64,000 bases of DNA, from the NCBI GenBank assembly GCA_034620365.1, contig JAQGEQ010000354.1:372001-436000 (forward strand), read 5' to 3'. The translations under genes and the position numbers were made by a program. This document shows positions 6,571-54,400 of the stretch, piece after piece. Each line of letters starts with the position of its first letter. Within the stretch, counting starts at the first letter, position 1. The notes beneath the pieces are model-generated. The model was not told where the DNA came from and did not search any database. It was given only the letters and a program-made list of their open reading frames with translations. Source of the DNA: Pegea sp. RAD2-039. Its lineage: Eukaryota > Chordata > Thaliacea > Salpida > Salpidae.

Positions 6571-6599
6571 ATTTACAATTTAATTAATTTTATAAATTA

Positions 6600-7255: not shown

Positions 7256-7261
7256 CTGATA

Positions 7262-7420: not shown

Positions 7421-8495
7421 GTATTAGAATGATACAGCTCAAATAATAACATATTAAAATAATTTGTAATCTACATTTAATGCAGAACCATTTTAATTCC
7501 ATTTGCTTCATCTGGTTGTTATCAAATATATCGTAAATTTTCTTGCTCACATCACTACAGGTGAGATGAAAGCAGGAGAGACATTTAAGGCATTCTATTG
7601 CCGGATCTTCACCAGAGCAAATTTGATTGCAGGATAAGCAATAATAATAAAACAGATTTATAAAAACATGGTTTGGTGACGATTAAAACTTTAGCAAACT
7701 GTAAAGTGAAAAACAACTCCAAAAGATTTAAAATTCTTTTAAAACTTTTAAGTAGACATTTTTAATACAGATTACAGTATTTCAAAACGCTTAGTGGTTT
7801 TTATATTTTAAACCTCTAAACTTGAACAGTTTTACAATATACTCTAAATTTTACAAATACTACACAATTGAAATTACTCCAAGTTTATATCCAGTTGGCT
7901 ACAACTTTAATATATTTATTTTACTTTAAACATTAACTTTTTAAAACAAATAAAAATACATTTATATTTTTTCAAGGTTGTTCAAACATAAAATATAAAA
8001 GTTTGAGTTAATCAGCAAACCCACTAGCTGTTAATTCTTAATTCAAACAAATAAATAAAATCAAGCAGAATTATGTACAAAAGTATATAGTAGTCCAAAT
8101 ATCGAGTTGTATATTTCTGAGTACAACATAAGTTCACATCATTTCCGCTGTTGTAAGTCACGCAATCACGTGACGATATCATAATAGAATGTTCAGCGTC
8201 AAAGTAATGCTTAAAAACTTGACTATGTTTACATAATTAGTGTAAGCATTGATCAGGTTAATCAACAAGCTTGATATTAGTGAAAGATTTATTAAAATGT
8301 CGGTTTAAAGATAAAATTTAGTTTGCGGACCACAATAAGAAATTTACAGATAACTATATCTCATTTACTGTAAGTTGTTTAGATCTCTCGTGTTGTGATT
8401 AAATAAACCTTTTAAGTTTTTCCTGCAGATTATTTTTTCTTTAAGTTATCATATTCTATATGATCTTGTGTTTTTATAATATTACTACACATTTT
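7420..8495. other. Intergenic DNA upstream of the SLC43-like gene
   Basis: No gene is seen. A less AT-rich patch at about 7555-7640 may be an old repeat fragment. Near 8168-8180 is a CACGTGAC sequence, a generic E-box-like palindrome. Promoter elements cannot be assigned. Confidence 0.35.
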
Positions 8496-8569
8496 TCAGT
8501 CTTAAAAGGTCAATATGCTCTTTGTAAATGAAACTTTTTGCCATTTTACAGAAAATCAAGTCAGGAATA

Positions 8570-19322: not shown

Positions 19323-22300
19323 ATGAAAGAAACTAGGCACCTATGGGTAGGAGGTCTACCTTCTCATCTAAATGAAGAACGTATAGCTGAGTATTTTGAA
19401 AGGTAATTGTTTATGAGATGATTTGAAGATGAAGATCTATTTGAAAGCATTGGTTTTCAGATATGGACGAATTGACCGTGTGAAGTTGTTAGAAAAAGAT
19501 TGTGATGAGCTTCATTGTGCTGTTGTTGCGTTTGTTGACATCAGATCAGCTCAAAAAGCTCATAGTACTTCTAATATATTAGGAGAGAATCATTTAAAGA
19601 CTAGTTATAGTGAAGCTGCCGGTAAGATTCGAATTTACAGGGAAGTCACCACCTTCTCATTTCCTTCAATTTTCTTATAGTGATGACGTCATCGAGATCG
19701 AGCTCAAAACAGCGTTCTTCATCTCGGCGAGATCCGCCCACACATTTTAAAAATGAATGTTCACCTCTGAACACTTTTGAAGGGTGAGATCTTACTTCTT
19801 TTACTCATTTTCGTCAGAAGACCTACTTGTCGAGCATCTCGATAAAAAATCTAAAAACTCGCGATGCTTGTAAGATCATCCACATCAAAACTAGCAGATA
19901 AATCTGATAATTAGTGGTTGATGGTACTCAGGAATCGCCTGCTACTAACAAACGCGTCAAACAATCACCTAAACATCAGCGTGTGTCTTAATTGATTTTC
20001 AGTTAAATTATTTTTATCTTCATTTCAAAAATGATTTGAATTTAGGAGGTTAGAGGTGCTAAATTGTCTAAAAATCTCCAAACAAATTGCTGTTGACTAT
20101 CTGTATCAATTATCGGCTCCTCACTGCTTCTATCACTCCTGTCTAATTATAATGATTTAACTTCAACAATTATTTTTATTTCTTTCTTTCTAAACTTCAA
20201 TTTGTGTTTTCAATTCATCTTTAGAATGAAAGTGAATATTTTTTGTCAGATTAACTGAGAACAACTCGAAGAAATACTCTCAAAATAGATGCAAATCAGA
20301 TAAATCCGACAGATCATTAAACTTAAGCAAACCAAACCACAAACTACATCGTGAACGAAAAGCTCACCATCAAAATGAAATGAACAATAAACTGATTCTA
20401 AAAAGCAATCAGAAGTAAATTTTCTAATAATTCTCAACTGAACAACTAATTATTGATATTTTCTATTTCTATCATGACAGTCTTATTTCGAAGCTTTGGT
20501 TAATTACCAGTATCTAATTACAATTAATCATTTAAAAACTACTTAAGATGATTAGATGAGTTATTGGCTAGATTCGAAAGTAAAGCTTTTAATTTGATTA
20601 ACAACAGAAAGAGTCTTCCTAATTTTGATAAATTCTTCTCTTTTCAACTTCTCAACCTCATTTCAAAACTATTTGTTTCCAGAAAAAAAATCAAATCAAA
20701 TATAAACATCAATTTGAATGTCAACAAATTCAGCATCAATTCGAAGAGAACAACAAAACCAGCGATCAATCGCTTATCAGGTTTGTTCTCATCCATCACT
20801 CGATGTTTGTCAATTCTCTAAATGCTCAACAGATAAATATCCGCCATCAAGTAGCAAGTCGAACTTGAAGAGGAAGTCGATGAGTCCGTCATCTCATTCA
20901 TCAAATCCTTTTCTCATCATTGCTCTTTAAAGGTGTGAAACGTGAACAAGTAGAAAGCGATGACTCAGATCGAAGCGCGACTTCGATTACGTCAGAATCA
21001 TCGTCTTCATCGTCATCAAAATCTTCGAGCGCTACATCATCTCAGAGTAGCTCTTCAGCAAGCTCCTCAGCTAGTTGCGAAGTAAATGAGAGCAAGAAGA
21101 AGATGAATACGATCAGGGTCTCGAAGTTGCCTTCGCGCTCAACCTTATGTGAGTCGACATCTCGCGCTAAATGCCACGCGCTAAATCTCCGTTTCTATAG
21201 CAACCGTATCACTCCAAGATTTGCTCTATGATGAGTTTAAGAAGTTTGGAAAGATCAAAGGTGTGGAAGTGGTGAACGCGACATCTAGTGACGCGCGTTA
21301 CGCCGAAGTCCACTTCTTCTGGCCACTAGAAAGCAAGAAGGTGTACGACCACCAACTCACCAAAGCTCTACATAATTCCAAGTTCGAAGTATGTAACAGC
21401 AAAAGCAACATCTCAGGTACTTGTGACGTCATCGATGACGTAATCATGTGATCACGTGCTTCGTGTAGAGTTCAGTTACGACAAGTACACGGTGGTTAGC
21501 GGAGTTGTAAGTGAGAAGCACCCACAGGCTTCCAGGACCCTTCATCTGGGTAGTATTGAGAAGAATATTAGTTACAACAACCTCCAATCGATGTTCGGGC
21601 GACTTGGAGAGGTACTAGTAAGTGCCCCTACGCCCCAATTTCTTCCCTGTTTTATTTGTGAAGTTTCAGTCGATAGAAATAAGGAAACAGAGTAATGGGT
21701 TCAATTCAGCTTCAATTCAGTTTATTGATATTGCAACAGTCGTTCGGATTATCAACAAGATGCAAGATCGCGAGAAGTACAACAAAAACAACTTTAAGGT
21801 GCCCCTTACGCCCCCTCTCTTCTTTCTATCGATTCAAACTTCGATTTATTCAACAGCTTGGTTTCGCCAAGACCCCCATCACCTCCTGTTTATGGATCGA
21901 CAAACAAGGATACAAAGAGAATAGCCTGATGTCCTATTTAGAAAGGTACAAACGCCCCAAGAACGCCCTGATCCCTTCATCTTAACTCTTTAACTTGCAG
22001 ATTCGGAAAAGTTGAATTAGTTTTGAATAATCGTAACAATGGTCAATCTGCTGTGATCTTCCAAAGATGGGAACAAGCACAAGATCTTTTCCAAGAGGTC
22101 CGAAAAAGAAAGAACATAAACCGCTTGAAAGTCGATTACGGCGGCTTCGAGTTTCTTCGCGCTTTCAACATGGCGCTGAAAAAATCTGGTAACCACGACG
22201 ACCTTTCACCCCCATCTTTCACCTCACTAACCAGTTGCTTCATTTACAGCTCAACCAGCTGCCAACATCGACAGCATACGTCATCTGATCCACTATCCAT

Positions 22301-25300
22301 CGTCAACAATGACGTCACCATCACTAACGAGTCCCCGCTCATCATCCTCATTCAATCCTTACCCACGTGACAGTTACTATGACGACAACAGCACCGATTA
22401 CTACCACCATTCGTCGTCGTCATGGAAACCTGGTGCTAGTGGTGGATGGGAACAGGAACCGCGTCGCTCGCGTCTCTTTCCTCGTTCGATTACGCCACCT
22501 CGTGGTAAATGTGATGAAGATCTGGAACCGAGAAGTCACTTCTATGATGCTCCTCATCATCATCACCATCGCAACGAGACGCGATATGCGGCTGGAAGTG
22601 ACTACTACGAAGAGCTTCGCGCTTCCAATTCATCTTCATCATCGTCGGCAGTGAACCGTGACGTCACTGATCTCGATTATCGACCAACTTCTGGTGGATT
22701 ACCGCAACTTTCTGAATTCCATCCGAGACGTCATCACCATCATCACCGGACCTCCAGCTACATCTCAGATCATCACAAATCGCGTCGAATCGCGTCAGAT
22801 GCTTCTTTACAGCCTCATCACTATCAAAGATCGCGTCGCAGTCGAACTCCGTCCCCCAATTCTCGCCCTCTTCATCGTGTTAGTGACGTTACAGACTTTC
22901 GAACACGGTCACCGGCCCGAGTCTCCCGCAAGTCGCGGCCCACCGACTATTCACCGCGTCGTGAAGTTACTTCACCGCGTAACCCAGTCAAGAGTAAAGT
23001 TGTGACGTCATCAACGAGTGGTGACGTCACTGCTGAAATTTACTATCACACGGGCGGAAGCGCGACGCCGACGCGCGACGAGAACTCTGATGTTATCATC
23101 GGCGAAATGATGATCAAACAGCCGGAAGCAAAACAGCAAAATCCGGTCAAGATGAAGTTGAATAAGCGCAACAAGTTAAAAGGTCACTTAGGGCCAGGAC
23201 AGGGGTTGACGGGGACCCAACAGGGGTTGTCGGGAAGCGAAAAGAAACCACAAAAGAAAGTGAGGGCGCACTCTGGTGGTGAAGTTCCCGAAAAGTTAGC
23301 ATCGCCATCTAGCGGTCGAAAACGGAAATTAGCGGAAAGCGTCGATGGTGAAAAGAAGAAAATGAAGTCAGCGTCGAGTGATGCTGGTGATGACGTCATT
23401 AGTTGTCATGGAAACATGGAACAAGCTTCGGCGTCAGTTGACGATAAACTGGTAACCAACTGCAATCAGATAGCGATGGACATTGATGTCACTGAACACG
23501 CAAATACGCCGCGTGACGTCATCAGTCATGAAAACTCTCTCGCTGTTGACAATCACGTAATTAGAAACGATGACGTCATAGGCGAGATTGCACAGAGATC
23601 AATGGATGGTAAATCACCAAATGTCACTGATCAGGCGGTTACCTGTGAGGTTTCCATGACAACAGGCCAGAAGTTGGTTGCTAAGCAATCGATAAAAGGA
23701 GTTGTTGAGCAAGAAGATATTTATACAGTTGTAGATGAATATAAAGATGATAGTTGGGACACAAATATGGGGAAAGATGGGATTAGTTCATCTCAAACTC
23801 CGTCTACATCACTTCCTTCAACTCCTCTTCCACCCACTCCGGCTCCTCAGACCCCGATCACTCCGGCTCCTCAGACCCCCATTACTCCGGCTCCTCTTCC
23901 TCCGGCACATGAGGTCCCGATCATTTCAGCTCCACAAACTCCAATTACTCCGGCTCCTCAGCCAACTGTTGAAACCATCAAATCTGATCCCGATCTCTAT
24001 CTCTCGCCTTTTCTTTATCCCAAACCTGACTATCATCAGAGTGATGACGTCATCAGTAGCAACGAGAAGGCTTCGAGCGTTGAAGCGGTCAACAAATCAT
24101 CGATGAAAGAAGAAGTGAAAAAAGTTTTCAAAACTCCGAAGGAAGATGAAACCGTCAAATTGGTTTATGACGAAATCAGTAAAATGGCGAAGAACAAAGC
24201 GACGCCGCCACTTCCGGTCGCTGTTGATTCGCCCTTTACCCCGAAAAGTACCCCTTCCAAACACTCGCTGTCGTCGGTTAATGAAACGCCTTCACCGTCA
24301 GCTCCTAGGTCAGCTCACAATCGTCACAAACCCGAACATCATGACATCAAAAGGTAACCAACCACCATTCGCTCGACTGTATGACGTCATCTTTTGTTGT
24401 TTCAGGACGCTTCAACAACAGCGCGTATCACGCGATCGTATGACGTCATCGAGTAGTAAACATCACAAGATGATGTCATCAGACAATCATCATCAAAAGC
24501 ATCATCACAAGAAACAGGATCATCGAAAACGTCATCACAACCACTATCATCACCATAACGACACCAACTATCATCATCATCGCATCGAAAATCAATCGTT
24601 ACATTATGACGTCATTCCGAAGGTGATCACGCTCACGACGGGATGTAACACGAGCAAGAACAAGGTGAGTAAGCGATAGGAGGGTTGTCGAGTTGTGACT
24701 CTATTTGGTTGCTTGGTTACAGTCGATGTCACAACAAGAACTCGAGAAAGTTCGAATGGAATTACTGAAGATTAAACAACAACCATCTTATTCACACATC
24801 GATTCGAGCGACGATGACGTCATCTACACAGCTCCTCCACTTAGCCCTATCTTGAAGAGTCCTAATTATGGAAGAGATCTGTTAAAAACGGTGAGCTTCG
24901 TTAGATGGTTGCCATGGTGATGGATTTCATAGAAACTGTTGCAGGCGGATGGTGAGAGGCATGTCCGGGTGACTAAATCGAAGTCGGATTCCGGATTTGA
25001 TCTCAAGATGAGATTGAAATCGATCGGAAAGGTGAAGAAGAGGACAAAGATCTGTGAAGAGATTTCAGAGAATATTGAAAGTTGTAAAAATCATCAGACG
25101 CTCCAATTTCAAATTGGAGATAATGATCTTCTCAAGTAAAACTCTTTAATCTTTCAAAAAAGATCTTCTCAAATCTTCATCTTTACAGATCTAATATCTT
25201 TGAACAAGATTTAGAGCGTTTATTGCACGGAAAATTTGCATATTCGAAAATCGAGTTCCTTCCCGACCAATCACCACTTTTCTCCATTCTATACCAGCAA

Positions 25301-28300
25301 CTGGTGGCCAAACCAGCGCCAGTAGAACCATCAGCGACCAGCATCCAACCATCAGCGACCATCATAAGCGACCAGCAAACAAAAAACGTGCAACCTCTCA
25401 GCAATAGTGTCCCGGCGTGTGCTGAGAGAGAATGTGTTGTCAACGCCGGAACCGACGACGCTATTCTGCGCCCTATTAACCCAATCAACACTTGCAACCT
25501 CATCCAGCTGACATCCAAAGATCGATTAGTGTCCGAAAACGAAGAGTCGCGATCATTTGATGACGTCACACATCAAGAAGAGTCTAATGAAACAAAACCG
25601 GAAGTGATCCGTGACTTCGACGAAGAAGAAAGTAAGCATAGCGACGATGACGTCATCAAACAACCACTGGATGGTAGGGAGGTGATGATGTTGGGAGATG
25701 ATGAAGTTGATGATTCGAATATTTTGATGGAAAATGATCTGATGTTGGAAGAGACTGTCGTGGAAGTTGAAGAAGATTTTATGCAAATTACATCGAAGAT
25801 GAAAGAAGATCCGGATCAGATAAAGAGTCTTCCTGATCCGCAATTGATACCTGATCCACAAAGACTGGAAGATTTGTGTAAAGAAGAATCTTTGTGTCCA
25901 CTAGAGAGCAGTAAAGAGAGGGATGAGGTAAAAGGAAAAGCGGAAATGAAGAAGGACCGGAAGATGAAGAAGATGCGCGAAGTTAGTGACGTCATCATTG
26001 CGTCTGACGAACAGCTGAGTGATGAGGAGAAGCAAAAGTATTCTGCTAAAAAGAAGCATCATCGCGAAATGAAGATCGCGTCGAAGAAGAATCGAACTGA
26101 AGAAGGATCGCAAAAGAAGCGTCATCATCTCGATCTCCAACGTCGATCATCTTCTGATCCCAAACTCAAATCTCAATTCCACTCTCTCCTCCTCTCACTA
26201 TCTTCCGACAACGATGATGACGTCACAATGACGTCATCATCAAAACTGAAAATGCGTCAGTCGCGCGTGAAGAGGTTGAAGTTTGGAAGTGGCGACAACC
26301 GGAAGCGAAAACGGATCCCAGATAATCTCAAATCCGACTCATCAGGCTCCGATGTAAAAACAAAACTCGATGACGTCATCGATCCTATGAGGAAGCCGCG
26401 TCGTTCCAAAGAGAAAGTTGTAGCGCCACCTGGCGACGAGAAGAAGAAGAGTGGAAAGATGCGTGCAAAGCGGAGAACCAATGAACATCAGCTGACTGAT
26501 TGCAGCGACAATGACGTCATCACCGCGCAATTGACCAACTCGCCGCTTAGAAGCAAGCCCACAACAGAGCTTGATGCTTGTGACGTCACTGGGAGCCACA
26601 AAAGACCCAAGCCACTAAAATCGCGGCTTGTTTCCAAGAGTAACAAGCAAGCGATGAAGATCGCGGCGAAGAAAGCTGCCAAAAGCAAATTGCACCTGAA
26701 AACCTCTGTGACGTCATCACCTCACGTGACCAACCGAAAGTCGGAAGTAGCAGAAATGACGTCAGCAACATCAAAACTTATGACGTCACGTCTTCTCGAC
26801 TCACCCAAGAGTCCAATGGTAGAATCGAAAGAAACAGTGAAGCGGAACTTCCATCCGTTGATGAAGAGTGCGACTCTGACGTCATCGTCGGCGTCATCAT
26901 CAGATGACGAGACTTCTGGCAAGTTACATTTGAGTCGAACTCTGACTGAAGAAGAACAAAAGAAGCTTCTCGGCTTCAAGCGGATGACGTCATTGTCATC
27001 GAAGGATCACAAACGCGTAATTGAAAAGAAACAAAGTCATGATGACGTCATTAACGCACAAGATCGCGATTCGCGTGAAGACGAGCGAAGGACACATTTG
27101 AGCTCTCGTGAGCCATCTAGCGGAATTAAAGATCGCAGATTGAGCTGGATGCGTGACAAACTGATGACGTCAGAGCGACCGCGCGTCAAGAAGCAGCTTC
27201 CGGTGGTGGAGAAAGCGAGAACTTCTTCGACATCATCTGTGAAAGAGAAGTTGAAAAAAGATTGGTTGGCGTCGTCGGTACCGAGTGTCAGTTGTCGCTT
27301 CGATAAAGCTTCGAGCGCTTCGATGCGCGTTCCTCGACCCGCTGTTAAAGAACGCCACCGCGTGGTCGCAACTGAAGCTCGTCATAACTTGCAGCACTTC
27401 CGCAAATCTCTCGATTCACGATTCCGCGAGAGCTTTCCAAAACGCTTCGAACACACAAAGAGCGCTAATTGGAATCGTCATCTTTCGCTCGACTCCGCCA
27501 CAGTCATGTCATCATCCACTGATGATGTGACGTCATCAAAGCGCGCGCCTCTTCACTCGACTTTCAACGATGGTTTGAGTGACGACGAGCGCCCTCCAGT
27601 GGCCAAACCTGAGACCTTCTCCTCATCCTCTAACTCGCCTCCATCTTCAGATCAACTGAAATTGGAAATTGATGAAGATAGCAGCTACTTCGATCAGAGC
27701 GTCACCAAACCCAAAGCTGATGACGTCAGCATCGGTGATGACAACGCACCGCGTTACCACGGCAACTTGTTTGCGCGAAACGAGCAGTTGTCACGTGAAC
27801 GTGATGAGGAAGCGGTTCGTTCGATTATGGGTGGCAACACAGAAATAGGCGTGGTTGCTATGGATGAATCTATGGAAGATGACGTCACAGAGACGATGGC
27901 GGGAAATGAGGTTGGTTTGGAGGGTCGAAGCGAAGAAGATGAACAAGAACTTGCTGCTGCTGTGAGCTCGATCTTTGAGGATGCGACTTGTGTCGGTGAA
28001 GATGTTTATATGTTGGATGTTGTTAAAAAAGCTCCTCCTGTTCAAGAAAGTCAACGGATCGAAGGGAAGTTGTTGGATCCGTTTATATTTCAAACGAGAA
28101 GAGATGAGGATGTAGGTCAAGGAAGATCCTTGATCAATCATGAGAAGAAGTTTACGAATAAGGTTTCTGAGGTTTTCTATTGGTCGAATTTTGCGACTAA
28201 TTTGCATATTTTCTAGTTTGACATCTCATTACAATCTGCAAATGTAACAACAGAACCGGAAGATTCAAATCTTCTTCATCTTCCTCAATCTTTCATTTGT

Positions 28301-31300
28301 TCATCCAATGGTGAGTCTTTGTTGAATCAACATCAGTTGGTTTTTACTTCAACTCGATATTTTTGCTTTCAGATGATGCAGTTTGTAAAGAAAACGAAAA
28401 AGATTCGATGTTGAAATCTGGAAGTGATTTAGACGGTATGGAGAGTCCAATGTCAGAAGAACAACAGTTGTTAATTGATGAAGATAGCTATGCTGGTCAT
28501 CTGATCGATTTTCAATCACAAGCTAAACAGAATAAAAATAGTTTAGGAAATATCTGTGATAAATACTCGAAAGATATTCAGTTTCCTCATTACATGGCTG
28601 CTGAAGAAAATAGTTTTGCAATACAAAACAGGAATGAAGATCTACAGAAAACAATTCATGAAAAACAGAAAAAAAGAAAGCAACAAGAAGAATTAAAAAG
28701 GAGACAAATTGAAGAACAAAGAAGAGAGGAACAAGAAGAAGTGGAAAGAAGGAAGTTTGAAGAACAGCAAAGAAAAGAACAAGAAGAATTTAAAAGAAGA
28801 ATGTTTGAAGAACAGAAAAGAAAGGAACAAGAAGAAAAAGTAAGAAGACAAATAGAGGAACGGAAAAGAAAGGAACAAGAAGAATTGAAAAAGAGACAAA
28901 TAGAAGAACAGCAAAGAAAGGAACAAGAAGAATTTAAAAGAAGACAATTTGAAGAACAGAAAAGAAAGGAACAAGAAGAATTAAATAGAAGACAGTTTGA
29001 AGAACAGAAAAGAAAGGAACAAGAAGAATTGAAAAGAATGATGTTTGAAGAACAAAAAAGAAAGGAACAAGAAGAATTAGAAAGAAAAATGTTTGAAGAG
29101 CAGCAAAAAAAAGAACAAGAAGAATTAAAAAGAAGGCAGTTTGAAGAACAACAAAGAAAAGAACAAGAAGAATTAAAAAGGAGGCAAATAGAAGAACATA
29201 AAAGAAAGGAACAAGAAAAAATAAGAAGACAGTTTGAAGAAGAGAAACGGAAACAGGAAGAATACCAAAGGAGGATGTTTGAAGAACAAAAACGAAAACA
29301 AGAAGAATACCAAAGAAGAATGTTTGAAGAACAGCAAAGAAAGGAACAAGAAGAATTAAAAAGAAGGCAGTTTGAAGAACAGAAAAGGAAACAAGAAGAA
29401 TACCAAAGGAGAATGTTTGAAGAGCAGAAAAGAAAAGAACAAGAAGAACTGAAAAGAAGACAGTTTGAAGAGCAGAAAAGAAAGGAACAAGAAGAATTAA
29501 AAAGGAGACAAATTGAAGAACAGCAAAGAAAAGAACAAGAAGAATTTAAAAGAAGGCAGTTTGAAGAACAGAAAAGAAAGGAACAAGAAGAATCAGATAG
29601 AAGAAAGTTTGAAGAATTGAAAAGAAAAGAACAAGAAGAATTTAAAAGAAGACAAATTGAAGAACAAAAAAGAAAGGAACAAGAAGAATTGAAAAAGAGA
29701 CAAATAGAAGAACAGAAAAGAAAGGAACAAGAAGAATTCAAAAGAAGGCAATTTGAAGAACAGAAAAGAAAGGAACAAGAAGAATTAGAAAGGAGACAAT
29801 TTGAAGAACAAAGAAGAAAACAAGAAGAATACCAAAGAAGAATGTTTGAAGAACAGCAAAGAAAGGAACAAGAAGAATTAAAAAGAAGGCAGTTTGAAGA
29901 ACAAAAAAGGAAACAAGAAGAATTTCAGCGTCACCAAGAAGAGTTACAAAGAAGACAAGTAGAGGACCAGAAGAGAAAACAACAACAACAATTTGAAATG
30001 CTAGAAAAGTCATCTCAGTTACAACATAGCCATTTACATAATCAAATAAAAACGGACAAAGATGATGTAAAGATGAAAAGACTTTCTGCAGATAATACAG
30101 GTGCACCAATCTCAGAACATATTCAACGACAACAAACTAAGAATGTGCATGATTTAATCAAATATTCCCCTGTAGTGCAACAAACAGTCAACAAAGACAA
30201 TCCTACTTCATATAATATCCCTTCAAATGCTGTGTTTAGTTACGATTTTAAAGATAAAAATCTTCCAACAAATTCTACATTGATCAAATCTGTTTATGGT
30301 TCTATGCAACCAGCCTCTGATGTCCACGACCCTTCCAACTTGTCCATTCTTTCACGGCACAGTCAGAAACTAACGTCACAACACCCTTCCTCTACTTATG
30401 AAACTTTTAACTTTCCTTCCACAAAAGCTTTTCCTGCCAAAACTACTTCTGTAGCAGAACAATCGTGTTGTGCTACGTCAACTAACGTCTACAAACAAAC
30501 CGATAAAATTCCGCTGCAGAATATTAACAAAATACAACTTACTAACACTTGCTGTGAGCAACCAACAAGCCTACCATCCACCATTGGAGGTAAATCACCC
30601 ACTTCTTTCTTCTTGCATGCTTCTTCTGCTTATTAACACACTACTTGTTCTGCTGTTTGCAACTCGTCTCCATTTAAAAGCATCTTCACACATTTCTTCT
30701 CATTTTAACAGCAAAGAAAAACGAAAAAGTTTATAAAAAGATTGAAGATTCGATGGAGGACCGACGGATGGTTTCGAGTCCTTATCATTTACAAGTCAGT
30801 TACGTATTTATTTGCACTTCAATCGAAAACATTAATTAGCTGTCAGCTCGTAAAAGTCTGTACAAACCGCGCGAACATGTCTTTTTATTTATTTGTTTTA
30901 TCAACATACTTCAAAAACTGCACCGCGCGCGCTTTTTCAATTTTCGATGTTTTTCAGAACAACTCAAGAAGATGTTCACCGAACACAGAAATTGAAAAAG
31001 CTGGTGATGAACGCTCGAACGGTTTGTGATGACGTCATTGCCGATGACGTCACGACTAATTAAGTATCCCGTGCAGCTGGAAGCAGAAGACCTTCAAAAG
31101 AATTCAACTCGGAAAGAAAAAATTGTGAAAAACAAGAGATGAAACAATCTTCAAAACAACTTCATCATCCAGAGACACAATCAAGATGTAACTCCCAGTT
31201 GATCCAACATCTTCACATGACAACTCCTCATCTTATCCACTCACAACCGCGTTGCCCCCAGCAACAACGCGTTCCTCTACTACATCACACATCACAGCTA

Positions 31301-33145
31301 CCTGCATCAACATATCTATCTGATCTACGACCATTTACATCACAAGTAAGCGTGAAACGATGACGTCATCACCTGAATGACGTCACCACTCACAGGCGGC
31401 TATGAATAAGACGAGTAATTCATCTTCGGTGAAATCTTCTCATAACTTTTACAACCAACCTCCACCGGTATCTTCTATTGACCACGTACCCCCCTTCTCT
31501 CAAGGAGTTCTCAACCTCAGTAAGGACACCACACGCCCCAATTCAACTTCATCTGACTTTGATCTTTTAGCAGGTCTTATCCCGTATGCTCTTCGACCCG
31601 AAGCGATGTACGCGCGGTCCGCTTTTCATCCTGGTCACCAACCACCCTTCCCTGCCCACCAACCACTCACGTTTGCAATGTCCCTCAACCCTCAGGGTCT
31701 ACAACAACAGTCGATGATGAGGTCATCACCGCGATCGCCTCAAACCACCTCAATTCGTCACCTACCACCTTCTCGACCTCACCCCAAACCCAAGGGTCCC
31801 TCCACGCCGCCCAAACCACCTCCAACGGTCGACAAATCGATCGACAAAAAGGTGGAAGAGCACTTCGTGAAGTCAGGTCAGTACGCTCGTCACGCTTCAG
31901 CGATTTCGCGCTTTCAACATCAATTTCAATCATCAGGGTTCCCCACTGTGCATCCGGTTCAATTCAATCCTCGTGTCACGCCCGCTGCCCCATCAGGTAC
32001 CTCATCTGCTTCCCGACTTCTACTTACCTATTACATTATCAGGAATGACGTCTCGCGATGGAATCCAGCGCTTCCCGTCTATCCTGCGCTATCACCACCC
32101 ACCTGCTGCCCCGTTTATTTGGGGAGCAGCTGGTCCAGCTCCTGAATACATGCCACGTCTGCCCTGGCCAGTCGATGGCTTGCCACTTCAACCACCTGTA
32201 CCTACGTCATCAGTCGCGCGTAACGCTGTTCATCAACAACCAATGACGTCACAACAAGCAAGCAAACCACCGAAGCAAGAAGTTCAAGCAAGCACCTCAG
32301 CTGAGTTGCCATCCGCACATGGAAACGACGTTCTCTACTCGGTTGGTTTCTTCCACGTTTCTATAACAACTAACACGTGCTTCTAAAATACTCCTTGAAT
32401 CTCACTTGTCACTAAATTGTACTTTTATGACGTCACAACCGATTTGAAGTAAGATTGGATTGAACAGAAGGAACTACATCACTAACATCATCATGAGAGC
32501 TTGCACTAGTGGTTTAACTTACCAGATATTTTATCCACAGCGATATCCGATCGTATGGCAAGGCAACATCATCGTGAAGAGTCAAGAAGCCTCTGTACAG
32601 ATTCACTACATCGCCGGCAATCGAGAAATTGCGACCAGCAAACTTCCGAAGAGCAAAATTGTAACTGATTCTGGACACTTATTGGCGAATCTTAGAATTA
32701 AAGATCGCTTACGAGTAACTCCTCAAAATTTGGACCTCCTAAACTCAAAGATGATGGTGAGCAGAAAAAGATCTTTGTTACGAATCTTTAACATTTCTTT
32801 TATGATCAGGATGAACTTAGTTATTGCATGTTGCTGGCTCTTCCATGTGGACGTGATAGTACGGATCTTCATAAACAAACAACTTTGCTCAAATCGAAAT
32901 TTATCGATTATTTACGCGATAAAAATGTTGCTGGTATCATCAATCTAGAATCCAATGAGAAACAAGTAAGTAGCAACTTCCACTTTTCAAACAACTCTTC
33001 TATTCGAATCCATCTACAGCCACACGTCCTACATTTCTTCCCCCCCGGTGATTTTTCAAATGAAAATATACAGTTAAGGGCACCAGATCTCTACATCAAT
33101 GTGACAGACATCCATCATCTGATGCTCCTCATAATGCCCGCTTAA
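19323..33145 (+). CDS. SPEN: Split ends / SHARP-like transcriptional co-regulator (SPEN)
   Basis: SPEN proteins bind RNA through RRMs and recruit corepressors through SPOC in the nucleus. Exon 1 (19323-19402) and exon 2 (19461-19621) give RRM1 ('RHLWVGGLPSHL', 'AFVDIRSAQKAH'). RRM2 spans 20933-21148 and 21201-21416. RRM3 and RRM4 lie on 21469-21617, 21670-21798, 21857-21945 and 22001-22188. Large disordered exons follow: 22250-24353, 24406-24664, 24723-24890, 24945-25135, 25189-28171, 28217-28310 and 28373-30589. Then come 30712-30794, 30958-31021, 31077-31345, 31396-31996 and one from 32043. A 'YALRPEAMYARS' segment resembles vertebrate SPEN. SPOC is on 32541-32756, 32810-32965 and 33020-33145. 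Joins were checked for phase except at 19783-20933 and 32340-32541. An exon at 20250-20414 is likely; others in those gaps are uncertain. The gene is much richer in G+C than its flanks. Confidence 0.93.
21101..22188 (+). other. SPEN: SPEN RRM2-RRM4 block with about 52-58 base introns
   Basis: Three RNA-recognition motifs are split by very short introns (21149-21200, 21417-21468, 21618-21669, 21799-21856, 21946-22000). RRM2 has 'NTIRVSKLPSRST' and 'LYDEFKKFGKIKGVEVV'. RRM3 has 'RTLHLGSIEKNISYNNLQ' and 'FGRLGEVL'. RRM4 has 'TSCLWIDKQGY', 'LERFGKVELVL' and 'SAVIFQRWEQAQ'. RNP1 is weak in RRM2-RRM4, as is usual for SPEN paralogues. All five introns restore the family alignment. Confidence 0.88.
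22309..27890 (+). repeat. TGACGTCA (CRE palindrome) cluster in SPEN
   Basis: The 8-base CREB/ATF palindrome TGACGTCA occurs about 30 times in this 5.6 kb, often extended to GATGACGTCATC. It is read as Asp-Val-(Ile/Thr) in one frame and (Met/Val)-Thr-Ser in another. The third frame would give a stop. At least one copy is intronic (about 24381). Further copies lie at about 19684, 21423, 31030, 31045, 31363, 31377, 32243 and 32428. Outside SPEN I found it only at about 42278 and 54094. Counts are by eye. Confidence 0.85.
23810..23965 (+). repeat. SPEN: Pro/Thr-rich short coding repeats in SPEN
   Basis: The DNA repeats units close to CCGGCTCCTCAGACCCC-ATCACT, giving 'APQTPITP' several times between Thr/Ser-Pro stretches. 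It is part of the disordered middle region. Such short repeats expand and shrink easily, so length differences between alleles are likely. Confidence 0.7.
28655..30000 (+). repeat. SPEN: Coding minisatellite: 15-16 residue coiled-coil repeat in SPEN
   Basis: About 27 tandem units of 45 or 48 bases encode variants of 'KEQEELKRRQFEEQKR'; shorter units read 'KQEEYQRRMFEEQKR'. The result is a highly charged Glu/Lys/Arg/Gln helix of about 440 residues, either a single alpha-helix or a coiled coil. The purine-rich strand leaves the antisense strand open for over 1 kb, but that is a by-product. TGACGTCA elements are absent here although dense just upstream. The block sits inside one exon (28373-30589). 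I know of no such block in vertebrate SPEN. Confidence 0.9.
32541..33145 (+). other. SPEN: SPOC domain exons of SPEN
   Basis: Three exons (32541-32756, 32810-32965, 33020-33145) encode the Spen paralogue and orthologue C-terminal domain. It starts at 'RYPIVWQGNIIVKSQ' and continues through 'LLALPCGRD' and 'AGIINL' to 'LHFFPPGDF', ending 'HLMLLIMPA'. In SPEN this domain binds the SMRT/NCoR corepressor and phospho-Ser peptides. Intron phases are consistent and the protein ends at the usual SPOC C-terminus. Confidence 0.93.
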
Positions 33146-34762: not shown

Positions 34763-37700
34763 TTAAAATATTGATTCGCGAGTCCTTAGCTGACTAAAAC
34801 AGAATTGAAGTTGGCGAAAAGTCATTCTATCTTCTGGATCAAATCTCCAACACTCTTTCATTAAATCATAAACTTTTTCAGGACAATCTAAAGGTTTGGC
34901 AAGCCTTAAACCATCTTTCAGTTTTAAATAAAGTCGATATAAATCTTTTAAAAGTAAATTTTTGATTTCTCTATCAGGGTAAGAAGGAGTAGCACAATAA
35001 GAAAACATTTCCCACAAAAGGACCCCATAAGACCACACATCTGATTGTAATTTGTAGACCTTTTTCTGGTTGACATTTTGTAGACATTCTGGGGCGTACC
35101 ACAAGGCAGGTAAATAGAGCAAATTGCCCCGGTAATAGTCTTCATCCTCATGTAGGACCCTTGAAAGACCAAAATCAGATATTTTGATGTGAAAGGCCTT
35201 GGTAGTTGCATCTTTGGCTAAGAGGATGTTCCGAAGAGCTAGGTCCCGGTGAAGAATTTTAGCATCTTGTAGATAAACCATACCTTCAGCTATTTGTTCT
35301 GAAAATTTGAGGAATTCAATTTGTAAATTCCGGATTGGATGTAGAACAGGATTACTGTTTTGATAATGTCTTTGTTTAATGATCCAATCATAAAGTTTAC
35401 CTTCAGGTAAATACTCAAGAACTATCATCTCATTTGGACTCGTAATACCTTTCAGACGGACAACAAAATCGTGATCTAGTGACCTCATCGTCTCAATCTC
35501 ATTCCCACTCCACTGAGTACCATTTTGAAGAGCTTTCACCGCCACTTGGATAGTTTTGTGTCCTTGAATATACTCGAATAGGTCTACATGTCCAAAGTGA
35601 CCCTTACCCAATGGCTTCACAAAATTCAGGTTGACTTCATAGAAAGTGTCTAAGTTGAGTTTCGGTTCTTTGATTTCAGCTAATTGCTCCTCGCTCAATT
35701 GTTCATCGACTTCGAACACGTGACCACCTTCAGTTATAATACTCCGAAGTTCTCGAAGCACTTGTCGAAATGGAGGACGTTTCGGGGGGTTAACACTCCA
35801 GCATTGACGCAATAGGGCGTGAAACTCCGAATATCGGTCCCCGGACAGCAATTTTGCAGGTAGTATGACACTTGCAGTGGTATACTTCTGGACCATTTCA
35901 GCCGTGAAGGTATGGACGCTATCATTCCACGCAATCTCGCGGCCCAGGTGACAAATCTCGTAGACAGTAGTGGCAAAACTCCACCGGTCACCACTGAGGG
36001 TCGGGTAGGTCATGCTGCCCACATTGACTTGTGAACGACCAGTCACAGCACAAAACTCATACGCGAGCCAAGGAGGATGTAAAGAAGCCTGGTATATATG
36101 TCCATTTGTTCTAGGAAACGAGTCCGTCCTTGAACAGATAGTCACACCCGCATCAGAGAGCTTAACGTGAGGATGAGGGTTCGCTTTCATCAACAAAACG
36201 TTCTTACCTCGAATTGAACCATGTGGTAAGTTGTGTTCTTCTAGATAAGTGCAAGCATGTGCTAGTTGCCAGAAAACAGTTAGAAACCAGGGTTCGTTAA
36301 AGTCTTCAAGAGCTTTCTGTCCTCTTATTCGAAGTATAGAAGTGATGGAACCCATCACCACGTGTTGAAGAACAATCATATTTTTGATAGTTCCAATAAA
36401 CTTGACAATATGACTCGTGTGGACTTTACTCAGTAAGTCACGTGACTGTTCAAAAGAGTCATCAACACACTGCTTCTGTTTATAATCGATTCCTGTTTGA
36501 TTGGATGAGATCTCCTTGTGAATTGTCTCCTTGATTACTACCAACTTATCATTTTCTTGATTACTTTTATATAATTTGACTTCAGTAAACCGACCCCTTC
36601 CTAGGTAGCTGACGATGTTGTAATGACGAATACAAAGAAGAATTGAAGAGACATTTTGGGTGACTGGATCTGATATATCATCACCACAACGACAAACAAT
36701 TAAATTAGAAACTTGTTTGACTTGTGGTGGGAAAATATGATCAAGTTGAAATGGTAAAGGATCATGACAACCATCCCGGCAGCTTTTCAATAAAGATTCC
36801 AAATCGAGATACTTATAGGATTTCGAGTCCCCATAAATACCTAGAAACTGACCATCACGATTTAATTTATAATTTTTGACGATGACTTTGGGCTGAGTGC
36901 TGACCACTGCATTAATAAAGAACTCATCATATGATTTAAAACTTTGGCGTAAGATACAATCTCCTACGTGAACGTTTGGTTGATCTTCTAAAATCTTCCC
37001 AGCAAACTCCACAGAGATTGGACCATGACAAAATAACTTAAGAAGCTTTACTTGGCGGGGAGAGACGATATCAGCGTTGAGGTAGTAGTGTGCATCAACT
37101 AGTAGACGATAGTAACCTTCAACACAGCTTGCAAAACTATTCGCTACTTGTCTGTTTTTGAACCGAAACTTCATTACCCCTCCTTTTAATAAACTGAAAC
37201 TTACAACACAAGATTCATCATCTGGTTCCTTGTTGTTGTCGATCACTGCCATATCAGAGATGTCACAGAAATCCAAGCTTCGTTCCTCTTTACGTGTGAT
37301 GGCCAACACCTCGACAATTCCTCCATCACCACTCACAAGGACCTCTTTGCACTCTCCATGGAGCTTATAAATTTCACAATGATCACATCCAGTAACCATT
37401 TCTAAGTTCATCAAATACTTCATATATACAAATGAGATGTGATGTCGATCACCTTCAAGATAACCCTCAAAGACATGTTCAAAGTGATTGATGAAGTATT
37501 TGAATTGTAATCTTGTTCTTTTGATGAACAGAAATCCCATCTCGCGGATGTACTTCTGGACATTACAAGGCAACAATCTTTTAAATTTCACTTTTTTCTG
37601 GACTCTTTTTAAATCCCAGTTTAGCTCTTTAGCTATTCGAACTATATCCAGCACCGCTACTCCTAATTGGACACTTACATCTTTAGATTCAACAAAATTA

Positions 37701-38179
37701 GACTCAAGCTTGCCTTTAATGAAATCGTTTCTTCGTTGATGGAAGTAGTACTTGATCACAATATCATTCATCACATATCTTGTTGATAAATCATCTTTAA
37801 GAAACTTTCGGTGGCTAGTTTGCATTTGACCATTTTTGGTACATTCACTTTTAAATGCAAATCGAACTCGAAGTTCAAGCTCTAATAAATTTCCATTATT
37901 TTCCATTAAATCTTCAAGTTTTGCAGAATTCATGACCCAAATATCAGATGAAGCATGTTTAAATGCAAACATTGAACAAAATAATGGTTTGATAGAGCAA
38001 TCAGTTAAACATTTTATAAAGATATCATCAATAAGTGTCTTTTTACTGCCTCTATATTCTAATAGTTCAACACTATTAAGACATTGAAAGAGTTGAGATG
38101 TTGGGTCATATTCTTGCCCACTTGCTGGTGGTTTAGAGAAAACTACAACTTGTACTTTGATATTTTCTTCTTCATTCAT
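34763..38179 (-). CDS. JAK: Janus kinase (JAK), complete single-exon gene
   Basis: A continuous 1138-residue frame from the ATG at 38179. Domain order is that of all JAKs. FERM is at about 5-360. An SH2-like domain is at about 380-475 ('CHGPISVEFAGKIL', Arg kept in 'CILRQS'). The JH2 pseudokinase is at about 520-815, with HGS in place of HRD ('HGSIRGKNVLL') and 'SDAG' in place of DFG. The JH1 tyrosine kinase is at about 850-1130, with a GKGHFG loop, VAVK, 'HRDLALRNILL', 'SDFGLSRV', the 'DEDYY' activation-loop tyrosine pair and 'WYAPE'. JH1 looks catalytically intact. JAKs sit under cytokine receptors at the membrane and phosphorylate STATs. The absence of introns in 3.4 kb contrasts with SPEN next door. 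A GGTTTATTAG acceptor lies 18 bases upstream of the ATG. Confidence 0.95.
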   Translation of the reverse strand: MNEEENIKVQVVVFSKPPASGQEYDPTSQLFQCLNSVELLEYRGSKKTLIDDIFIKCLTDCSIKPLFCSMFAFKHASSDIWVMNSAKLEDLMENNGNLLELELRVRFAFKSECTKNGQMQTSHRKFLKDDLSTRYVMNDIVIKYYFHQRRNDFIKGKLESNFVESKDVSVQLGVAVLDIVRIAKELNWDLKRVQKKVKFKRLLPCNVQKYIREMGFLFIKRTRLQFKYFINHFEHVFEGYLEGDRHHISFVYMKYLMNLEMVTGCDHCEIYKLHGECKEVLVSGDGGIVEVLAITRKEERSLDFCDISDMAVIDNNKEPDDESCVVSFSLLKGGVMKFRFKNRQVANSFASCVEGYYRLLVDAHYYLNADIVSPRQVKLLKLFCHGPISVEFAGKILEDQPNVHVGDCILRQSFKSYDEFFINAVVSTQPKVIVKNYKLNRDGQFLGIYGDSKSYKYLDLESLLKSCRDGCHDPLPFQLDHIFPPQVKQVSNLIVCRCGDDISDPVTQNVSSILLCIRHYNIVSYLGRGRFTEVKLYKSNQENDKLVVIKETIHKEISSNQTGIDYKQKQCVDDSFEQSRDLLSKVHTSHIVKFIGTIKNMIVLQHVVMGSITSILRIRGQKALEDFNEPWFLTVFWQLAHACTYLEEHNLPHGSIRGKNVLLMKANPHPHVKLSDAGVTICSRTDSFPRTNGHIYQASLHPPWLAYEFCAVTGRSQVNVGSMTYPTLSGDRWSFATTVYEICHLGREIAWNDSVHTFTAEMVQKYTTASVILPAKLLSGDRYSEFHALLRQCWSVNPPKRPPFRQVLRELRSIITEGGHVFEVDEQLSEEQLAEIKEPKLNLDTFYEVNLNFVKPLGKGHFGHVDLFEYIQGHKTIQVAVKALQNGTQWSGNEIETMRSLDHDFVVRLKGITSPNEMIVLEYLPEGKLYDWIIKQRHYQNSNPVLHPIRNLQIEFLKFSEQIAEGMVYLQDAKILHRDLALRNILLAKDATTKAFHIKISDFGLSRVLHEDEDYYRGNLLYLPALWYAPECLQNVNQKKVYKLQSDVWSYGVLLWEMFSYCATPSYPDREIKNLLLKDLYRLYLKLKDGLRLAKPLDCPEKVYDLMKECWRFDPEDRMTFRQLQFCFSQLRTRESIF

Positions 38180-38199
38180 TTTCAACAAACAATTATTCT

Positions 38200-41662: not shown

Positions 41663-42376
41663 ATGTTTCTATCAAAAGTTTTCTCTAGAGGTTTAGTGAA
41701 TATACCAGCCTTACCATGTACAAAGCTATATCATACAACACCATCTAACAACAAAGAAGGTATGTTAGACAAAGAACCAGCTCAAGCATACCAACCAGTA
41801 CGCCAAGAGCTTCAAAATATCAGAAATGCTCCCAATAAAGCAGAATATCTTTATACTAGAGTTGATGATCTAGTAAACTATATGAAAACTAGTTCAATTT
41901 GGCCTATGACATTTGGACTTGCATGTTGTGCTGTTGAAATGATGCATTTTGCTGCTCCTCGTTATGATATGGATAGATTTGGTGTTGTATTTCGAGCAAG
42001 TCCTCGACAAGCTGATCTCATGATTGTGGCTGGAACTCTAACTAACAAAATGGCCCCTGCTCTTCGGCTTGTATATGATCAGATGCCGGAGCCAAAATGG
42101 GTTTTGTCCATGGGCAGCTGTGCAAACGGTGGAGGGTATTATCATTACTCGTATTCAGTTGTTCGAGGTTGTGATCGCGTTGTTCCTGTTGATATTTATG
42201 TACCTGGATGTCCTCCAAGTGCCGAGGCTCTTCTGTACGGCATTCTTCAATTACAAAAGAAGATTCGTCGCGAGCGTATGACGTCATTTTGGTATCGTGA
42301 AAAGTCACCGATGATAGAAGAGAGGTTTCCTTTAAGAAAGAAAAAAGTGGAAGACGTGAAACAAGTATCAGAATAA
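41663..42376 (+). CDS. NDUFS7: NADH dehydrogenase [ubiquinone] iron-sulfur protein 7 (complex I PSST), mitochondrial
   Basis: One uninterrupted exon of 237 residues. The first ~30 residues are basic and hydroxylated ('[10 protein letters not shown]', 'TKLYHTTPS'), fitting a mitochondrial presequence. The core carries the ligands of the terminal N2 [4Fe-4S] cluster: the tandem Cys in '[11 protein letters not shown]', the Cys in '[17 protein letters not shown]' and the Cys in '[14 protein letters not shown]'. NuoB/PSST passes electrons from the Q-module to ubiquinone at the base of the complex I arm. It is about 24 residues longer than human NDUFS7, part of this in a Lys/Glu-rich tail after 'KKIRRER'. 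That tail's DNA includes a TGACGTCA. Candidate acceptors lie at 41581 and 41613. Confidence 0.96.
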
Positions 42377-51479: not shown

Positions 51480-54400
51480 TTAGAATAAAATATAAATTAT
51501 AAGTATTATTAACCAAGTAATATATTTATAGATATCTTTATATCAGCTTTTAGGTTCAGTTTCACAAATTTATTTAATTCTCTATTAACTTGTTTGCTTT
51601 AAATACAAAAATATACGTAATGAACTAACTATTATTTTACAATTAAACTAATAAATAATTATTTTCAAAATTACTATTTATGAATAATAATTAAAATAAA
51701 GTTTTATTAGATTTATTTTGACTAAAATTAATTTAATGAAAAAAATATATATAAATTGCAAATACCACTAAAGCCAATTTTTTATCAAATAAAATTAATT
51801 TAAGTTTTTAATTAAAATGTTAAAACAAGTTTTTAAACTGAGCCTCAAACTAAAAAAAAGTATCTACTATTAGCTGATGTCTTAATACAATCTATATCTT
51901 GTTTTGTAAATAAGCAAAAAATAAACGAAATGGTTGTCTATAAGCATCCTTAACTAAGTAAAGCATGACTTAGTATTTGATATGCTTTTTTACAAATATT
52001 AAACAACAACCCAAGTGAGCATTGAAATTAGAATTAATATTCTAAAAAAAGAAAAAAAGGCAATAAAACTGTAAATGTAAATTGACTATAGAATAACGTT
52101 TCCATCAAAATCTGAATACACTATTGAGATAGATGAATGCGACATAAAAATGTGAATACACTATTGAGATAGGTAAGAATGACATAAAAATCTATTTTAG
52201 TATCTTTATTTCTGCATACAATTAAAGCAAACTATCAAAAGCGATTTTTGGTTTTTAAAGCTAAACCTTTTTAGAAAACCGCTATAAACTCATTTTGTTA
52301 AAAAAAGTTTCATTAGCGATTAATGATATATCTCAAATGTATTATCAACATTTTAAATACAATAAAAAACAAATAAACAAAATCATGGACAGTTTTTAGA
52401 CTTTAATCTCTACAACATCTTAAGCCATTTTGCCAATTGTTTATGAATAAGATACTTTGATAAAATATTTTACCAACACTAACTTTTATAATTAATTATC
52501 CTGTATAAATCAATATCAACAGCTAAACTATAAATGTTGCTTACAACATTTGAAGCAACAAAGCTAAAAGGTATTTACTAGTTGACTGCTGACTTATATA
52601 ATATTAAGTGATCAAAGAATCTGTAAAATCAGCTCCAAAAATTAAATAATTGATGAATATTTGCAGCTTAACTATAAAAATGTTGCTTTTACTACTATTT
52701 ATAAAAAGTCTGAATATTTTCAACTTGGCCTTTTCTACTTGTAAGCTTATACAATCAAATAATACTTATCCAAAAACTTTTCAGCACAAAAATGTAAACA
52801 GCTTAGTGCCAATTAACAGTAACAAACCATTTGTTGCACACATTTGTAGCGATAATCATTCTGAATAATAATTAACTACCCAACAAACGACCAAGTTGTT
52901 TAAACAAAGTGCATATATGGATAACAAAGGTTTAAATTCTAGTTGCTTAGAATATAATTCTTTAAATTACTTAGAAAGCTATTAAATACTATCAATAAAA
53001 TGTTTGCTCAAAGTCCACTAAGCGCACAATAAACTGATTAAATAGGTGAGGTAGGAAGCACATTAATTACAAAAATTTTGTTCTTGATTTACATGACAAT
53101 TTTATTTTAAGAATAGTTTAAAATATTCAAGTTTTAATAAATGGATACTCAAAGTACAATTCTTGACAAAAATGTTAGTATTGGTATATCAATAAACAAT
53201 TTATTCTCAATGTAAACAAAACACATTTTTAGTTTTCTTTAAAAAAGAAAACAAAATAATCCTTTTCAAAAATAATTCTTTTTTTCCTCATCATCATTTA
53301 TTACAAAACTATTAGATTTGAATGAAAATTAATTGATTTGCCAATAATTTGCTTATACAGTTTGACAAATCAATATTCTAAAGCATTCATCAATAAATAT
53401 ATTCTCTTTAAACAGTAAAATTGAAAACATAAATCAATAGATCCGATCTTATTAACTGTCAGGTTTTCCTGGTAGAGTAATTTTATAAAAAAAAAATCTA
53501 AAAATCTAGATCTAATTTTGTAAAAATCTAGATTTAACTTATTTCAATAATTTAAAAATTGTTTAAGGCTTATAGATTTAATTTTACTAGTTAATTTTCA
53601 ACAACATATCATTTCATTTTTTAAACAAGATTTAATTCAAGTTTAGTGCTAAAATAAATATAAAAAATGATTGTTTTATAGAAAAAAATTTAAGGTACAT
53701 TTTTTTGGCATGTAGTTAACCTCTAATTTGCAAAGTAAAACTTATTTGCTTATACCACATAATTGATTTATAGGCTCTAGTTTTATTTATCTTTACGATT
53801 TTCATTTGCTTTCATAAAACATAGATTTATAGATTTACATAACTACTTCATTAAGTAACATCATCAGCTAAAACTGGGTTTAAACTCTTAATTAAAAGAA
53901 ACTTAGTTTCATAGCAAAAAGACTCTATTAATAAAAGCTAACTATCATAAAATATACTATTGGCAAGGTTTATTATAGTTATAAAAGTACAACTTAACAA
54001 AAAATAAAACTGAATAAAAGAACACTTAAAAAGTTCAGCTTATCTCATAGTATTAAAACTTCTCATAAAACAGCAACACATGACTTCCTAAATGACGTCA
54101 AGCTAAAGCCTACAAAAAATATCAAATTGTAGCAAATTAAATTGTTGTTTTTTTAATTCAAAAGCTCTATCACGATTCTTGAAATGACAAAAGCTGGTTT
54201 TTTTATTTTTAATTATCACAATATATCTTAGAACAATATATCTTTGAAAAGTAAATAAGAAGTAAAAGTTTATTACACTAGAAAGTAGAGACTGACTTTA
54301 AATATTGCATCATGAAGAATTGTTTTCCTTTAATTCTATGAAACTTAAAAGTTCCTGGTTTAAACTGAAATAGCTATTAAAGGTACAATCATTAAAAACT

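Follow-up and report, generated by a model that had tools for sequence, protein, structure and literature searches.

A CRE-type palindrome in genome-wide excess in the salp Pegea sp., densely repeated in a SPEN-like gene

The palindrome in the SPEN-like gene

The 64,000-nucleotide stretch of DNA analysed here (the window; Pegea sp. RAD2-039, assembly GCA_034620365.1, contig JAQGEQ010000354.1, positions 372,001 to 436,000 of the forward strand) carries a SPEN-like gene studded with the palindromic octamer TGACGTCA, the word known as the cyclic AMP response element (CRE), which is also in excess throughout the assembly. An earlier note had counted by eye about 38 copies in the gene, about 30 of them between 22.3 and 27.9 kb, and two in the rest of the window. 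Exact search confirms these figures, with 40 copies in the window, 38 of them inside 19684–32435, 30 in the densest part at 22310–27887, and the other two at 42279 and 54093. The count is also far above chance, as the note had claimed: the dinucleotides of the region itself predict 0.35 copies, and none of 100 dinucleotide-preserving shuffles of the whole window reached 40 (mean 0.53, largest 3).

The identity of the gene as SPEN-like is supported by predicted domains, with an RRM_1 match near its start (21185–21388; 23.4 bits, cut-off 20.7) and a SPOC match near its end (32448–32945; 27.9 bits, cut-off 25). A Pfam scan of pieces from the long middle of the gene gave nothing above cut-off, and when the core was searched for another allele or a paralogue, the SPEN locus alone was returned. 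The two long open frames of the core (Table 1) hold 26 copies, of which 16 are read as Asp-Val and 10 as Thr-Ser, the latter preceded by Met (6), Val (3) or Leu (1). The use of two reading frames, which the earlier note had pointed out, therefore stands; the third frame is trivially absent, because it would put TGA in frame. The note had also placed the copies in exons, which is correct for most but not throughout, as those at 31361 and 31378 are intronic by inference and that at 21424 looks intronic by eye.

Genome-wide excess

Genome counts cover the 105,744,746 bases of the assembly in 387 contigs, and the control for each word is the same word read backwards, with identical letters. For TGACGTCA, whose reversed form is a palindrome too, the assembly holds 27,792 copies against 969, or one copy per 3.8 kb. 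Eighteen unbiased 10-kb stretches, taken at a fixed coordinate on different contigs (the 18 loci), hold 34 copies against about 1.0 expected (68 against 2.0 with both strands counted); two of the 34 lie in a duplicated arm of L017, without which there are 32. The copies are unevenly spread, with 22 of the 34 in two stretches and none in seven.

A wider set (all sampled DNA) also takes in L019–L023, L031, L033 and L034, which were picked for motifs, and L032, which seemed motif-poor; all of these are excluded from counts for the 18 loci. L030, which repeats the window, was excluded and an arm of L017 masked or cut in the counts of density by GC content, the 256 octamers, the third-order model, the CpG bins, GACGTC and spacing, and R..Y flanks. 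For the table of flanks at −1 to −3, masking was applied to one arm of the inverted duplication in L017, and for the CpG bins it was extended to the tandem arrays in L007 and L015. The survey of open frames left out L030, frames shorter than 220 codons and low-complexity frames.

When the 256 palindromic octamers are compared in the 279 half-kilobase bins of all sampled DNA with a GC content of at least 0.30, TGACGTCA stands 90-fold above a second-order expectation (180 against 2.0), and the next words with at least six copies are TCACGTGA at 8.7-fold and CCAGCTGG at 5.7-fold. Genes other than SPEN are as dense or denser: an RCC1/BTB gene has 30 sites in 5 kb and an adenylyl-cyclase-like gene 33 sites in 6 kb, both at loci picked for motifs and with inferred introns included. 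The latter gene, in L034, was named by eye, and the single piece of it that was scanned had no Pfam match; its inferred introns contain the octamer, one of them four times in a row. SPEN is one of several dense loci and is not special.

The second palindrome, TCACGTGA, occurs 4,614 times in the whole genome against 237 for its reversed form and has two copies in 25127–28216. It sometimes overlaps TGACGTCA (for example at C1:23084 and 23089), and among the first matches listed its spread looks more even by eye.

The recognised unit

The enriched word is longer than the octamer. The 10-mer ATGACGTCAT occurs 11,048 times in the genome against 121 for its reversed form, whereas TTGACGTCAA, which has the same letters, core and CpG, occurs 204 times against 160, so that the two differ 54-fold; the 14-mer TGATGACGTCATCA occurs 1,972 times against 0. 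At 109 sites, T is found at −1 in only 7 of 218 flanks (both sides, with a symmetric preference), and G is preferred at −2 and T at −3. Purine–pyrimidine (R..Y) flanks surround 312 of 388 strand-counted sites. The inner hexamer GACGTC is found inside TGACGTCA in 194 of its 212 occurrences in all sampled DNA and outside it in 18. The recognised unit is described by the consensus TGATGACGTCATCA with the core RTGACGTCAY, a preference extending over 10–14 bp. The enrichment concerns the 8-bp spacing of the palindrome; the 7-bp AP-1 form TGASTCA is hardly enriched (11,142 against 9,494).

The peak over near misses is sharp. Counts of the transversion neighbour TGAGGTCA are near control (784 and 845 against 669 and 678), whereas the CpG-decay word TGATGTCA occurs 5,503 and 5,567 times against 1,373 and 1,300 for the reversed words and exceeds a third-order model 1.35-fold in the 18 loci and 1.8-fold in all sampled DNA. 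When the motif is masked, words one transition away from the octamer exceed that model 1.8-fold in all sampled DNA (61 against 34.0, strand-counted) and words one transversion away 1.1-fold (66 against 58.6), and TCACGTCA is under expectation (2 against 5.9). The decayed copies share the flanks of intact ones, with A..T flanks at 14 of 40 TGATGTCA sites against 2 of 25 for TGAAGTCA. The standout among transversion neighbours is TTACGTCA, at 2.4-fold in all sampled DNA (18 against 7.6) and 1.5-fold in the 18 loci (5 against 3.3), with R..Y flanks at 15 of 20 sites; the comparison words TGAAGTCA, TGATCTCA and TGTAGTCA have such flanks at 4 of 25, 2 of 10 and 5 of 10. This second tier with motif-like flanks is perhaps what graded affinity would predict.

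CREB/ATF dimers prefer purine–pyrimidine flanks, and the profile is that expected of a symmetric protein dimer, which would fit a reading by an ATF/CREB-class bZIP (basic leucine zipper) protein. A CREB1-like bZIP exon is encoded in the genome (E 8.6e-20, 37 of 46 residues identical to CREB1), and bZIP_1 matches number at least 12, including one that looks JUN-like by eye. The link to CREB/ATF drawn in the earlier note is thus upheld as a matter of sequence specificity only, through the flank-dependent preference and the encoded CREB1-like protein. The sharp flank rule argues against codon use, self-pairing and CpG retention as sole causes, since ATGACGTCAT and TTGACGTCAA hardly differ in these. 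Self-pairing of DNA or RNA was rejected on this ground, as both 10-mers are fully self-pairing yet 54-fold different.

Protein change and the origin of copies

The SPEN frames contain 24 Asp-Val pairs where composition predicts 8.5 (Poisson tail 1e-5), and the 8 cases outside the motif are at chance level; Thr-Ser occurs 24 times against 13.6 (Poisson tail 0.007), 10 of these being motif copies. Given this excess of both pairs, the motif has added residues to SPEN, beyond synonymous codon choice. Together with the use of two frames, this supports an action of the motif on the DNA level.

In the cases that could be checked by alignment, the copies appear to have arisen by substitution in place. 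The NDUFS7 copy (residues 209–211) lies within a 155-residue stretch that aligns gap-free with a PDB NDUFS7 chain, and the first BTB match in L033 (residues 22–92) holds five copies over 71 Pfam profile positions with no net length change; this BTB domain gives a weak residue alignment with KEAP1 (E 0.46), in which small gaps separate the places of the motif. Among pairs at least 45 bp apart, the flanks beyond the 14-mer are more than 60% alike in 2 of 111 pairs at 45–150 bp, both in L033; for far pairs the figure is about 1 in 1,084. Closer copies show a second source: 15 of 171 neighbour gaps are of 20–24 bp, and L033 and L034 contain, by eye, arrays of units of about 20–70 bp with the motif, so that local tandem duplication adds some close copies. 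A mobile element was rejected as the general origin; in one repeat family, the member in L013 has the motif and three aligned relatives are without it.

Sequence context of the copies

The density of TGACGTCA rises with GC content. It is also linked to CpG retention in GC-richer DNA, as judged from CpG observed/expected ratios (o/e) computed after motif masking in bins of the 18 loci and the window. Above a GC content of 0.36, 45 copies fall in 29 bins with o/e above 0.9, against 5 copies in 22 bins at 0.5–0.9; at a GC content of 0.28–0.36, the figures are 9 copies in 27 bins against 0 in 78.

All sampled DNA has 30 open frames that reach 220 codons, of which 7 contain a copy, and in this survey none was found in the JAK-like, JUN-like (461 codons, GC 0.415), three DNMT-like and MFS frames. 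The earlier note had held that equal density in all GC-rich coding DNA would speak against its reading; the outcome lies between the two cases, the excess being genome-wide but very uneven, and some frames are without a copy. Unevenness is seen on a larger scale on contig C1, where, among the matches listed, ATGACGTCAT occurs 36 times in the first 1.994 Mb and 64 times in the next 0.149 Mb. Copies are seen in gene bodies and inferred introns.

Comparison with known systems

The nearest analogue is HIP1 (highly iterated palindrome 1, GCGATCGC) of cyanobacteria, which, in the part of PMC4390886 devoted to it, shares an 8-bp palindromic form, a genome-wide excess and a peak over near misses. The excess of one short palindrome across the genome is found here too, but the word is different, with 2 strand-counted copies of GCGATCGC in the 180-kb sample of the 18 loci; the setting is an animal nucleus, and the flank rule extends to 14 bp. 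The spacing of HIP1 is given there as about 1 per kb (PMC4390886), against 1 per 3.8 kb here, with a very uneven distribution along the contig seen. The inner hexamer, as a cognate methyltransferase would read it, is not enriched here outside the octamer. Highly iterated words are known from bacteria, and their origin there is still debated.

Animals are not known to have natural transformation or RecBCD, and uptake sequences and Chi sites are generally not palindromes. Bacterial DNA uptake sequences and Chi sites resemble the present case, in the terms in which PMC4390886 introduces them, as dispersed short oligomers far above chance with roles in uptake or recombination. An animal case of a highly iterated palindrome was not found in the open literature searched, most subscription journals lying outside its coverage.

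The CRE of CREB/ATF bZIP dimers is the same octamer, with a CpG centre and decay to TGATGTCA, as described in sections of PMC1796609, and one CREB study used AGATGACGTCATCT as a symmetric site, according to a portion of its text (PMC11514473). In vertebrates, the same sections report CRE to be concentrated near transcription starts, a positional bias said to occur in vertebrates only (PMC1796609), whereas here gene bodies are full of it, it runs on through exons and the encoded proteins are altered. On its own, a CRE match in this genome is no evidence of regulation.

To our knowledge, accumulation of ATGACGTCAT across the fission yeast genome has not been reported. The ade6-M26/CRE meiotic hotspot of fission yeast is this same 10-mer, with A at −1, and is ATF/CREB-dependent there, as stated in the parts of PMC3534124 that treat it. 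The ATGACGT core with A at −1 is likewise the enriched form here. The likeness is one of sequence; the hotspot makes a link to recombination worth testing.

Explanations for the excess

The explanation that we lean to, and to which we give about an even chance of being right, is a weak, pervasive, binding-dependent fixation bias. In coding DNA as well as outside it, most copies would be created by point substitutions of the ordinary kind, and an ATF/CREB-class bZIP dimer, the probable reader, would bind them and raise their fixation above that of neutral changes. The bias, which we infer to lie in fixation, would work best where CpG is retained, presumably in DNA that is unmethylated in the germ line, and elsewhere copies would decay through CpG deamination. 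Assuming detailed balance, a scaled coefficient of no more than ln 90 = 4.5 would suffice for the 90-fold excess; this value is modest for a large population and could be obtained from weak selection in such a population or from biased conversion. For this last step, weak selection for gene-body occupancy is tentatively preferred to motif-directed gene conversion, which we hold to be somewhat less likely; polymorphism at motif and near-motif sites could distinguish them. In an animal genome, about 28,000 copies of a regulatory palindrome that adds Asp-Val and Thr-Ser pairs to a protein would indicate that coding sequence can be widely shaped by binding-site drift or drive.

Several observations weigh against this explanation. 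Bins with a GC content below 0.28 show no CpG trend (4 copies in 102 bins, 2 in 109 and 1 in 41, with rising o/e), and the link in richer DNA is partly driven by SPEN, since without the window the figures above 0.36 are 10 copies in 11 bins against 1 in 14. Nineteen isolated copies lie in surroundings that, beyond about 50 bp, are ordinary and CpG-poor, and the CpG-rich 254-codon frame of SPEN has no motif. On C1, density varies on a scale of about 100 kb (over its first 2.14 Mb, ATGACGTCAT has 430 against 18 copies per Mb), which is not predicted by binding alone. Some close copies are accounted for by tandem duplication, and TCACGTGA, which we take to be of the E-box type and not a CREB/ATF site, is also in excess. 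In vertebrates, moreover, CRE is known as a promoter-proximal element, as sections of PMC1796609 describe it.

The rival that comes closest is motif-directed biased gene conversion, in which the allele with the bound palindrome would serve as repair template in heterozygotes and spread without benefit to the animal. We know of no animal precedent for it and consider it unlikely, although by a smaller measure than the other alternatives. It would suit a motif that alters the SPEN protein, sits inside a BTB domain and NDUFS7, occurs in exons and inferred introns alike, and is clustered on one contig within about 150 kb, a pattern that a process tied to recombination could give. The yeast hotspot points the same way in requiring ATGACGT as well as Atf1-Pcr1, but motif copies were not significantly associated with breaks in budding yeast, both as stated in the relevant parts of PMC3534124. 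Under what is called the hotspot conversion paradox, moreover, conversion should remove a break-attracting site, and the bias would therefore have to run the opposite way. In the boldest form of the idea, this would be the first case of a highly iterated palindrome in an animal nucleus: a 14-bp word, read by a transcription factor dimer, would promote its own build-up by way of repair or conversion in the germ line, and would alter introns and proteins across the genome to no benefit of the genes concerned. We regard this as doubtful. A mechanism like that suggested by HIP1, in which the palindrome is made and maintained by a sequence-specific methyltransferase together with repair of the methyl-directed or very-short-patch type, would match the count profile and the seven long frames encoding a cytosine methylase domain, and HIPs go with methyltransferases, as noted in part of PMC4390886. 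It is nevertheless improbable: GACGTC is rare outside the octamer, the unit extends to 10–14 bp with a decisive −1 base, and this sharp flank rule makes a short-site methyltransferase unlikely. Repair from T to C should also deplete TGATGTCA, and very-short-patch-like repair was rejected on account of the excess of this word over control.

Retention alone, whereby bound or unmethylated sites escape CpG decay and so look enriched, has in its favour the CpG link in GC-richer bins and the decayed relatives with motif-like flanks. Against it, 15 control CpG palindromes of like composition, pooled, reach at most about 3.2-fold in any bin, 6 of the 10 control copies in that bin being TCACGTGA, and TTGACGTCAA, with the same CpG, is near background. 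As a 90-fold excess is not creatable where CpG o/e is already near 1, retention as the whole answer has a low probability, a shade below that of the methyltransferase mechanism. Much the same low standing is given to copying, in which the palindrome would be carried along by a mobile element or by short duplications, whether tandem or dispersed; the motif-bearing arrays and the 20–24 bp gaps fit it, but in pairs at least 45 bp apart flanks beyond the 14-mer are rarely alike and the NDUFS7 and BTB copies replace residues. The earlier note had also proposed an intragenic CREB array peculiar to SPEN, through which the gene would feed back to cAMP signalling. The 38 copies in SPEN invited this idea, but with 27,792 genome-wide and an equal or greater density in other genes it is unsupported, and we find it hard to credit. 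The note's third alternative, a dispersed genome-wide oligomer that acts on the DNA level and that disordered coding sequence tolerates, is the one that the data support. Chance arising from base composition, codon bias or protein repeats is the least probable of all and can be practically set aside: dense loci are GC-richer, but the expectations already include local dinucleotides, the next palindrome reaches 8.7-fold against 90-fold, and 10-mers of the same letters lie 54-fold apart.

Other features of the window and the sampled loci

Table 1. Positions of the palindrome and of related features in the window.
Feature	Position	Strand	Basis or remarks
SPEN-like locus with 38 TGACGTCA	19684..32435	.	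exact search; RRM_1; SPOC
TGACGTCA copy, inferred intron after RRM exon	21424..21431	.	borders by eye
SPEN core part 1, stop-to-stop frame, 708 codons	22231..24357	+	8 in-frame copies of TGACGTCA
SPEN core part 2, stop-to-stop frame, 1,029 codons	25127..28216	+	18 TGACGTCA; GC 0.464; CpG o/e 1.25
Closest TGACGTCA pair of the window, 11 bp apart	26218..26236	.	two frames: Asp-Val, then Met-Thr-Ser
Repetitive charged frame in SPEN locus, 0 TGACGTCA	28315..30636	+	GC 0.327; CpG o/e 0.35; internal contrast
Two TGACGTCA copies (31361, 31378), inferred short intron	31361..31385	.	no open frame >18 codons; GT...AG borders by eye
254-codon open frame in SPEN locus, 0 TGACGTCA	31381..32145	+	GC 0.525; CpG o/e 1.02
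JAK-like open frame adjoining SPEN, 1,144 codons, 0 TGACGTCA	34763..38197	-	GC 0.38; neighbour contrast
Isolated TGACGTCA in NDUFS7, read Met-Thr-Ser (residues 209–211)	42279..42286	.	gap-free alignment with PDB NDUFS7 chain
Second isolated TGACGTCA outside SPEN locus	54093..54100	.	exact search

The repetitive charged frame of the SPEN locus is coiled-coil-like and highly repetitive, with a self-similarity of 81% over 1.1 kb. The JAK-like frame has a FERM_F2 match and two kinase stretches, with SH2_1 and FERM_F1 both below cut-off. A reverse-transcriptase-like fragment, recognised by eye, lies at 6187–6585 of the window, and copies 87–89% alike occur in L003 and L005.

Among the sampled loci, L017 has inverted arms of 1.7 kb (1–1703 and 5609–7306), 99–100% complementary, around a frame that is sulfotransferase-like by eye; the arms reflect either an inverted duplication of recent date or a fold-back in the assembly. 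L015 carries long arrays (5543–6616 and 7549–9671), built of 14- and 15-bp units, beside an ABC-transporter-like frame, and L007 has an array of about 3.3 kb (1296–4561). No COX1 family match was found in the assembly, and the mitochondrial genome may therefore be absent from it.

The seven frames that encode a cytosine DNA methylase domain, open over 832–873 codons, lie in L035, L036 and L037 and at places on C32 and C52. They look DNMT1-like and, by eye, intronless; seven such frames would be unusual for an animal. The three that were scanned have two BAH stretches each and no other Pfam domain above cut-off, and two of the frames are inverted to each other, about 4 kb apart.

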